In this document: piece by piece, positions 5,670 to 52,654 of the stretch
How positions within the stretch are numbered: the first letter of the stretch is position 1
How the letters are laid out: every line of letters begins with the position of its first letter
Assembly (NCBI RefSeq): GCF_016403105.1
Contig: NZ_CP046155.1
Location: 2,509,906-2,573,905, forward strand
Direction of reading: 5' to 3'
Source: Leptolyngbya sp. BL0902
Lineage (GTDB): Bacteria; Cyanobacteriota; Cyanobacteriia; Phormidesmidales; Phormidesmidaceae
Length of the DNA stretch: 64,000 bases
The notes under the pieces: model-generated
Told to the model about the DNA's origin: nothing
The model's database searches: none
Seen by the model: the letters and a program-made list of their open reading frames with translations, nothing else
Made by a program: the position numbers and the translations under genes

Positions 5670-6681
5670 ATGACTGTCTTCGTCGATACCCACCGCGAGC
5701 CACCCCAGCGGCGGCGCTTTGTTAGTCTTCAGGTACGCCTGCTGGTAGGGTTTACTATCATTTTCACAGGCGTATTCTCGGCGGCCTACTACTGGTTCTA
5801 TACCTTCACCATAGAAAGCGCAGTAGCCAGCCTCCGAAAAGATCTCAACAACACCCTAGAGGGAGCCGCCGCCGGGGTTGATGCGGAGGAGTTAATTGAC
5901 CTTTATACAACTGGGGAACCCAATGCAGCGGGGTTTTCCGATGATCCCCGCTACCTGAATCAAATTTCCTGGTTTGAAACAATTCAACAGCTAGAGCCCC
6001 GTGCTTGGCCCTATGCCTACATCATGGTTGGATTGGCCGACCAAGACACTGCCAGAAAGCAGGTGCGAGATAGCAATGGCAATATCAGCGTTGAAACCTT
6101 TGTTCCTAGCCATGATCGGCAGTTGGTTGGGGTTGTCGATCTATGGGCCATTCACGATCCGGCCAAGTCTTACTTGTTTCTAGACATGGGTGAAGCCAGC
6201 CATTATTCTGTGCGGGCTTGGAAGGAAAATCGACTCATTGAACGCTCAGATTTGTATGCTGATGCTTGGGGTGAATGGTTTAGTTCCTACACGCCTATTC
6301 GCAATGCCGAGGGGGAGGTGGTGGCACTCTTAGGTATTGATTTTGAGGCTAGCTATGTCAATCAACTCAAGCGCTCGCTAGTGGATCAGATTATTATCTC
6401 CTTTAGTTTGGCTTACATCACCTTGTTTATTCTAGTGTACGTCAGCTCTAAATTTTTTACTCGTCCCCTCAAACATCTCAGCTTTGCAGCCAAGAAAATT
6501 GCTAATGCGGAATATGACGATACCGAATCCTTTAAGCTTCTCAGCAGTCGAAAGCTAAGGGATGAATTCACCGATTTATCCGACACTTTCATGATGATGA
6601 CAGCTAAAATTAGAGGCCGTGAAGAGGCTCTAAAAACGAGGGTTCAAAAGCTACAAATCGAAATTGACGAGACTCGCAAAC
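5670..6681 (+). pseudogene. HAMP-domain membrane sensor, 5' part (interrupted by IS)
   Basis: First 337 codons of a sensor protein. They encode a short cytoplasmic N-terminus, membrane helix 1 at about residues 22-46, an extracytoplasmic sensing region (about 47-235), membrane helix 2 (about 240-262) and a HAMP linker starting at FFTRPLKHL, followed by a coiled coil. No kinase, cyclase or methyl-accepting domain follows. The reading frame runs into the IS end and stops at 6728 after 15 foreign residues. The remainder of the gene is at 7995-8143. Removing the IS and one 9-bp target copy joins the halves in frame into a 383-residue protein. Loss of the C-terminal helix probably impairs function, although a truncated protein could be made. 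Confidence 0.9.
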
Positions 6682-7994
6682 CTGACTGCCTGACACATCT
6701 TTATGCGGCCTCCCAAGGGGGTAGCTGACAGCGCATGGACTGGATCCTAGAGAACCAGATGCGGTCATAATATCGGGCTTCTGCCTTTTTAGATGCAAAA
6801 CAGGGATCTGGGTCAACGGTCAATAGGGGGATGGGGTTGAGCAACGGACGCCCTTTGTTGACCACCCCTCTAAGCCAGCGGAGGCCGATTTTGAGATAGC
6901 TGATGCCCCGTGTCCAATGAGGGTCAACCTGAGAGCGGAGACCGTCGAGTTGAGCGGCCATGCCCTGGGTGGTGCCATAGAGGATGGCGACTGCCGCGAC
7001 GAGGTAGAGACGTTCGAGGGCTTGGGCGGAGCGGATGCCGGAAGATTCGAGGGCAAAGGCCCCGGATTTTGAATCGAGGAACAGTTCCTCAACTCGGAAC
7101 CTGAGGGCATATTGCCACAGGGTATTGAGGGTCGGCGGCTCATCGGTGATGACCGCCCAGGGCTCCTTAACGCCTTTGACGTTAGCCAGAACCAGGTTGC
7201 AGCGCCAGCGCCCATCGGCCCACAGGCCAATGCCCTCATAGAAACGAACTTCGCCCTTGGGGGGCCACAGAACACCTACCTCAATCGGCTGACGGCGGGG
7301 GCCATGCACCACCACATCACTGGGCAAGCGTAAAGCATAGTGCCATCGACTGTCGCTGAGCCACGCCAGCAGGTCATGGTTGGCAAACCCTCGGTCGGCT
7401 AACAGCATCACATCGGGATAAGCCTGCAACAGTCGATGGGCTAAGCGCAGCATCGGCAAATACCGTTGGGCACTGACCGTGGCACTAGGATGCTCTAACA
7501 CCCGCCACAGCAGGGGCACCGCCCGCCCACAACAGGTCACGGACAGGTGAATCATGCAATACCGATTCCACAGCACCGTCGTATCGAGGGCTAGGTAGAG
7601 TCGCCGTCCTTTCCACCGATGAATCGCCGCTAACGCCAAGGGCACGTACAGACTTTTAATCCGCACCCGGTGATTGCTCATAAACCGTTGCCATCGTCGT
7701 TCGGTGCTTTGCGCTTGGCGGGCGCGACTGGGAACATAGGCCTCCCACTCCGGCAGGCTCAACCGACCACTGCACACCAGCGCCGTCACCATCCACGCCA
7801 GCGCTTTGAGGTGCCGTAAATCCCGACGATGGCTATATTGACGCAGCAAGGACAGCACTTGATCATAGAGACAGGTGGTGGATGACATGGCAAAGACCCT
7901 GAAATACGCAAATTCCAGCGTCTCATGTCACCTCACCTTTTCCCCTCCCACCACGAGGTTTCAAGCCTTTCACCCACTTCTGTCAGGCAGTCAG
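6682..7994 (-). mobile_element. IS4-family insertion sequence, complete (1313 bp)
   Basis: Both ends carry a perfect 14-bp inverted repeat, CTGACTGCCTGACA (6682-6695) and its complement (7981-7994). The flanks are an exact 9-bp direct repeat, CTCGCAAAC, at 6673-6681 and 7995-8003, which is the target duplication. The ends begin CTGACT, as in IS50, and the 9-bp duplication agrees with the IS10/IS50 side of the IS4 family. The single transposase gene is intact. The element interrupts the HAMP sensor gene. Intact ends, intact target duplication and an open transposase frame suggest a recent insertion and possible activity. Confidence 0.96.
6701..7888 (-). CDS. IS4-family DDE transposase
   Basis: A 395-residue protein that cuts and rejoins the element ends in trans. 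Visible catalytic motifs are the first Asp in LALDTT (about residue 104), the second Asp in LLADRGF (about 183), and the third-block signature Y-(2)-R-(3)-E-(6)-K in YALRFRVEELFLDSK (about 288-302), which is diagnostic of IS4-type transposases. It fills the element, leaving about 20 bp at one end and 105 bp at the other. It reads opposite to the gene it interrupts. The same enzyme could act on the MITE at 52404-52564, which has nearly the same ends. Confidence 0.95.
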   Translation of the reverse strand: MSSTTCLYDQVLSLLRQYSHRRDLRHLKALAWMVTALVCSGRLSLPEWEAYVPSRARQAQSTERRWQRFMSNHRVRIKSLYVPLALAAIHRWKGRRLYLALDTTVLWNRYCMIHLSVTCCGRAVPLLWRVLEHPSATVSAQRYLPMLRLAHRLLQAYPDVMLLADRGFANHDLLAWLSDSRWHYALRLPSDVVVHGPRRQPIEVGVLWPPKGEVRFYEGIGLWADGRWRCNLVLANVKGVKEPWAVITDEPPTLNTLWQYALRFRVEELFLDSKSGAFALESSGIRSAQALERLYLVAAVAILYGTTQGMAAQLDGLRSQVDPHWTRGISYLKIGLRWLRGVVNKGRPLLNPIPLLTVDPDPCFASKKAEARYYDRIWFSRIQSMRCQLPPWEAA

Positions 7995-8143
7995 CTCGCA
8001 AACAGCGAGAAGTGAAGGAAATTGTTGAGTCTGACTTTTTCCGAGAACTCCAGCAAAAAGCCGCAGAAATTCGACGCCGTGCTAGGGAATATCCTGAGGG
8101 AGAGGAGGACGTTGATGGGGCATCCTCAGACAGTTCCCTTTGA
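7995..8143 (+). pseudogene. HAMP-domain membrane sensor, 3' part
   Basis: Last 46 codons of the interrupted sensor gene, from the second target copy to TGA at 8141-8143. It encodes a charged helix (KQREVKEIVESDFFRELQ), then an acidic Ser/Asp-rich tail. In cyanobacterial HAMP proteins this EIVE-DFF-ELQ helix normally follows the IEIDE coiled coil that ends the 5' part, so the two belong together. An open frame from 7925 covers it, but its first 26 codons are IS sequence. Confidence 0.88.
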
Positions 8144-8278
8144 ATAGCATAAACCCGAAGAGACCCCCCTGCATCAAATGAGGTTTTGACCAGCGCAGCC
8201 TGAGCAGCATCGGTTTTTAGTCGGGGGTAGGCAATCGGGATTTCGCAGAATAGACAGGCCAAGCTGGCGGCGACAGGC

Positions 8279-52306: not shown

Positions 52307-52403
52307 TGGGAGTCTGAAAATATCTTTCCTTTATCTCACTATTAAAACCTTAGTACAAAAGCTATTCAGAACTTTTTCCATGGGGAAAGAGGATGGCATC
52401 ATG

Positions 52404-52564
52404 CTGACTGCCTGACACATCTCTGGAAACCCCTGATTTCTCGTGGGGGACGTTGGCCCAAAAGCCCCTTCAGCCAAGCTCTCCGGCTCCAACCCAAGGG
52501 CTATAGGCTTCGGCTCCAAGACAACGCATTTTCAAGGCTTTCGGGACTTGTGTCAGGCAACCAG
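52404..52564. mobile_element. 161-bp MITE related to the IS4-family element
   Basis: Left end CTGACTGCCTGACA (52404-52417) is identical to the IS4-family end at 6682, and the identity continues to 19 bp. Right end TGTCAGGCAACCAG (52551-52564) matches in 12 of 14 positions and shows further similarity inward (GAAAG-CTTGAAA). An exact 9-bp target duplication, GGCATCATG, flanks it (52395-52403 and 52565-52573). It has no transposase frame, so it would move only with the help of the IS transposase. It marks the right border of the polysaccharide locus. Confidence 0.93.
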
Positions 52565-52654
52565 GGCATCATGTCTTAGCCTCATTTTAGAGAAGTGGAT
52601 GAAGATCTCGCTCAGCAAGTTAATGACTGACTGATGTATTAGGGGAGCTAAGAT

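Follow-up and report, generated by a model that had tools for sequence, protein, structure and literature searches.

The element at positions 52404 to 52564 (+ strand) of the DNA stretch that we analyzed (64,000 nucleotides from Leptolyngbya sp. BL0902, here referred to as the window) is very probably a type II MITE in which an unrelated interior is enclosed by the two ends of a Tn5-like insertion sequence (IS) of the IS4 family, and which is moved by the transposase of the resident IS. A first-pass annotation had proposed a 161-bp MITE with IS-matching ends at this site, and the element is real: it measures 161 bp, recurs in the genome in a second copy (160/161 identical), and has relatives in other genomes. 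On both sides it is flanked by the 9-bp target duplication GGCATCATG (52395 to 52403 and 52565 to 52573), which is perfect, as annotated; the interval from 52395 to 52573 thus consists of the 161-bp MITE and the two repeats. The element is nonautonomous, being too short for a transposase gene, and no 100-aa open reading frame (ORF) lies within its 161 bp, at which length none would be possible. Its GC content is 56.5%, versus 37 to 40% in the surrounding stretch.

The left 19-bp end of the MITE, CTGACTGCCTGACACATCT (52404 to 52422, + strand), is of the ATCT type found at the 3' end of the IS and shares 19/19 positions with the IS at 6.7 kb (IS positions 1 to 19, window positions 6682 to 6700), where this end lies 3' of the transposase gene; the annotated 19-bp identity was hence exact. 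The right end (52546 to 52564, - strand), which reads inward as CTGGTTGCCTGACACAAGT, is of the AAGT type found at the IS 5' end. Compared to that other IS end, CTGACTGCCTGACAGAAGT, it matches at the annotated 12/14 positions and at 16/19 over the full end, the three mismatches being located at positions 4, 5, and 15. The similarity that the annotation had seen further inward is real as well: the 26 bp inward of the right end resemble the IS 5' subterminal region with a score of 26, compared to a shuffled mean of 9.6, and 0 of 5000 shuffles reached this score. An exact copy of the 14-mer end was found in the window only at the two IS ends and at the left end of the MITE, with ∼0.0005 occurrences expected randomly (128,000/4^14), whereas with up to 3 mismatches allowed the 9 occurrences seen were near the 5.3 expected by chance. 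Since a 9-mer recurs at the spacing of the MITE at 4 of 63,800 window positions, chance does not account for a duplication that abuts the inverted repeats precisely.

The likely helper is an IS4-family insertion sequence of 1313 bp (6682 to 7994, - strand) that is flanked by its own 9-bp target duplication, CTCGCAAAC (6673 to 6681 and 7995 to 8003). Its transposase gene (6701 to 7888, - strand) is intact, a single ORF of 395 aa without a frameshift, and the encoded DDE enzyme carries the Y-(2)-R-(3)-E-(6)-K signature as YALRFRVEELFLDSK. A DDE transposase with this signature and without a frameshift characterizes the IS4 family (PMC2266710). The enzyme matched the Pfam profile DDE_Tnp_1 at 31.5 bits (cutoff, 23) and scored 113.6 against NCBIfam IS4_2, which is under the cutoff of 152. 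Its predicted structure (pLDDT, 82.8) adopts the Tn5 fold, the top five PDB matches all being Tn5 transposase and other IS4-family structures being absent among the matches; the structural alignment with Tn5 transposase has 14% identity, and phmmer yielded no match among the PDB sequences. Elements of the IS50 subgroup have ends of the pattern CW------Y---CA-A--W-, duplications of 8 to 9 bp, and a typical size of 1350 to 1550 bp (PMC2266710). The IS has such ends and a 9-bp duplication, but its 1313 bp fall below this size range and within that of the IS10 subgroup (1200 to 1350 bp). Because size and NCBIfam score leave the subgroup unsettled, we label the IS as IS4 family, Tn5-like, and withhold a subgroup assignment. 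The IS interrupts a gene close to its 3' end (window positions 5670 to 8144), and uninterrupted homologues of this gene in two other genomes (G035 and G044) read through the insertion site.

The first-pass annotation had suggested searching the genome for both ends and 9-bp duplications. In the source genome (4.71 Mb in 6 contigs), this search, whose counts cover a limited number of candidates scored per genome, yielded at least 10 copies of the IS and at least two of the MITE. Seven of the IS copies are identical; of the others, one has 6 differences as well as a stop codon, another is 88% identical, and another is decayed. Perfect 9-bp duplications flank 8/9 complete copies, with 2 mismatches at the remaining one; among the seven identical copies, the one at C1:3633213-3634525 has a duplication with 2/9 mismatches and a copy in opposite orientation 5 kb away. 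On the small contig C5, two copies (88% and 99.5%) lie in the same orientation ∼1.1 kb apart (C5:19810-23562) and possibly form a composite arrangement. The second MITE copy is located on contig C6 (25,969 bp), which is probably a plasmid, and differs from the window copy at a single position. Its flanks are unrelated to those of the window copy, its perfect 9-bp duplication is a different one, and the gene that it adjoins is an unrelated one. Given the separate flanks and duplications and the one difference between the copies, we conclude that the two insertions were independent and recent.

The only sequences that a pattern search for the ends recovered were the IS, decayed IS copies, pieces resembling MITEs, and members of a distinct 130-bp family. 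No second transposase with such ends was found among the matches of this search across the whole source genome, the IS being the sole transposase-encoding element recovered with these ends. A piece at C1:3573362-3573397 consists of the two IS ends alone, 36 bp in total, with a target duplication of 8/9; it is an IS deletion product of minimal size. At C1:2835500-2836086, a MITE right end comes directly after an unrelated gene that by eye looks transposase-like, as if the element of this gene had inserted into the MITE.

Relatives of the MITE were found well beyond the source genome. Genome G035 carries four, with 94, 87, 85, and 80% identity, G046 carries one with 76% identity and a perfect duplication, and G047 carries one with 68% identity; partial matches were present in G026, G039, and G042. 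A genome of another genus (G010) harbors a sister subfamily of MITE length with an alignable interior, from which about a dozen complete copies were recovered, their duplications being mostly perfect. A sequence-only model placed the family in 22/65 genomes and 6/14 genera, and the plasmid collection contained neither a MITE match nor a related plasmid. Since full-length relatives with 68 to 94% identity occur in other species alongside the sister subfamily, the MITE lineage predates the burst that multiplied the IS into identical copies. The IS at 6.7 kb is therefore a plausible present-day helper of the MITE rather than its progenitor. Genome G047 carries the MITE and yielded no transposase match at an E value of ≤1e-20. 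Co-occurrence of MITE and transposase across the genomes is loose. In addition, a large number of the assemblies are drafts, where copies of an IS collapse at the ends of contigs; we thus left co-occurrence out as evidence.

For the MITE copy in G046, the joined flanks align with three genomes (G031, G047, and G041) as a continuous stretch that lacks the element. These relatives are 72 to 76% identical and the 9 target bases have drifted, so that the empty site is shown but the exact single 9-mer is not. At the window site, comparison of the joined flanks with 28 genomes of the genus found the far right flank alone to be common and the left flank to be absent from the relatives, and for the C6 site the downstream gene alone was common among relatives.

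The two ends of these elements are of distinct types. In the IS group (transposases 64 to 92% identical), the 5' end mostly contains CACAAGT or CAGAAGT, with CACAAAT in two cases, and the 3' end contains CACATCT or CACATTT. Among 26 related MITE-like elements with both ends, the 9-bp duplication was perfect in 14 and had at most one mismatch in 19. A CATCT-type end was paired with a CAAGT-type end in 25/26 of them (the CAACK ends of a 148-bp subfamily being scored as 5' type), which is how the IS combines its own ends, and the two types differ at positions 17 and 18. The outside end of Tn5 likewise differs from its mosaic end at positions 17 and 18, and also at position 4. The 5' end of the group consensus, CTGACTGCCTGACACAAGT, matches the Tn5 outside end at 14/19 positions, which shuffles reach at a frequency of 1e-5. 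The corresponding 3' end matches the Tn5 mosaic end, CTGTCTCTTATACACATCT (PMC4248319), at 13/19 positions, reached by shuffles at 2e-4. Retention of mixed ends in gene-less MITEs across several genera would mean that asymmetry between the two ends is a requirement, or at least a strong preference, of the transposase itself, a reading that we consider possible but rather doubtful. The same mixed ends were also observed in an 83-bp MITE in genome G052 (L163, positions 1451 to 1533), which has a perfect 9-bp duplication.

The MITE most likely uses the transposase of the Tn5-like IS located elsewhere in the same genome. By analogy with the IS4 family and Tn5, we infer that this enzyme acts in trans and by cut-and-paste chemistry: it would bind the 19-bp ends of the MITE, bring a CATCT-type and a CAAGT-type end together, excise the element, and insert it at a new site through a staggered cut of 9 bp, which would generate the 9-bp target duplications. 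The first-pass annotation had gone further in describing the two elements of the window as parent and derivative. Their shared ends stand, but derivation from the window IS does not, and a direct origin of the MITE by internal deletion of the IS at 6.7 kb is very improbable. Both ends and the 9-bp duplication do match the IS, and deletion products of the IS arise in this genome, the 36-bp piece with its 8/9 duplication being one. However, the interior of the MITE shows no resemblance to the IS (P = 0.63), a comparison by which we ruled out a deletion derivative, and its left subterminal region resembles the 5' end of the IS where a deletion product should resemble the 3' end; moreover, the full-length relatives in other species predate the identical IS copies. 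An interior that is unrelated to the IS and common to old copies in other genera makes the element a type II MITE rather than a deletion product. Mobilization by a related but different IS from the same end group, now lost, with the resident IS no longer recognizing the MITE, is a more serious alternative, albeit still an unlikely one. It would accommodate the 3/19 positions at which the right end departs from the IS end, the MITE copies in genomes where no intact group-A transposase was detected, and the precedent of the 130-bp family with group-B ends, which outlived its own transposase in the source genome. Against it, the near-identical MITE pair and the seven identical IS copies indicate that both elements were active recently and at about the same time, and within the IS group the ends also vary at positions 4, 5, and 15, where the right end of the MITE differs.

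We also considered whether the host retains the MITE because it serves a function, for instance as an RNA hairpin downstream of the final polysaccharide gene, and not as a passive passenger; of all alternatives, this one appears the most remote. The polysaccharide genes extend from ∼39.1 to 52.3 kb and include functions in export, chain length, and flipping as well as a glycosyltransferase and a sulfotransferase. The MITE lies at the border of this locus, as annotated, 97 bp past the last ORF of the run and ∼270 bp before a gene for an HxlR-type regulator, and breaks no gene. A functional role could be read from this location between two genes, from an RNA fold that is better than those of shuffled sequences (z = -3.2), and from the G046 copy, which lies upstream of a gene that by eye looks like a nucleotide-sugar gene. 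However, the fold consists mostly of the inverted ends, covariation supports 4/27 pairs of the interior, no terminator or promoter signal rises above chance, and the C6 copy sits beside an unrelated gene on another contig. A conserved RNA structure of the interior and a promoter or terminator role were consequently rejected, for weak covariation and chance-level signals, respectively. An Rfam search of the MITE returned one subthreshold chance match only.

In addition, the source genome contains at least 13 copies of another MITE family, whose members measure 130 bp and have CTGRTTGACTGACAAAACT and ...AAAAGA as their ends (for example, C1 1358005-1358134, 3810367-3810496, and 1886729-1886858, and C4:64313-64440). 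Perfect 9-bp duplications flank 5/6 copies examined. The matching IS group, with group-B ends, is present in relatives, and since only transposase fragments of it occur in the source genome, the 130-bp family is an orphan there. In a 148-bp subfamily, ends of the same kind enclose a foldback interior, GTAGGTTGGGT..., with several perfect 9-bp duplications (L274, L279, L269, L280, and L283; in the source genome, C1:1138807-1138953 and C1:1601205), which suggests that the GTAGGTTGGGT palindromic repeat can travel as a MITE.

We found no literature record of the MITE family: its end sequences were absent from the papers searched, none of which named both Leptolyngbya and MITEs. The element represents a new type II MITE family together with its probable helper, and is otherwise an ordinary, well-documented passenger of a transposon. 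The mixed-end pattern and the neighboring orphan family are its main points of note. The probable helper and its passenger form a recently active pair in a cyanobacterium, in which the end preference of a Tn5-like enzyme could be tested by a standard tube assay, and a single genome holds one MITE with its probable helper and a second family without a matching transposase. These findings are useful for annotating cyanobacterial repeats and leave the general picture of how MITEs work unchanged.

Nezha, reportedly described by Zhou in 2008 (cited in PMC10969869), is likewise a mobile MITE in cyanobacteria; we liken the two by description only and claim no family identity. The transposase of Tn5 has ∼476 aa. 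The IS resembles IS50/Tn5 in its 19-bp ends of the subgroup pattern, its 9-bp duplication, the YREK signature, and Tn5 as the best fold match, and differs from it in its length of 1313 bp and in a transposase of 395 aa with 14% identity in the structural alignment. Type II MITEs are 50 to 500 bp long, lack a transposase gene, and have target duplications, terminal inverted repeats in common with an autonomous IS, and an interior unrelated to that IS (PMC10969869). The element described here is like them in its 161 bp, in its IS-type ends (19/19 and 16/19) and 9-bp duplications, in the lack of a transposase gene, in its several independent copies (at least two in the source genome and about a dozen complete ones in G010), and in an interior unrelated to the IS.
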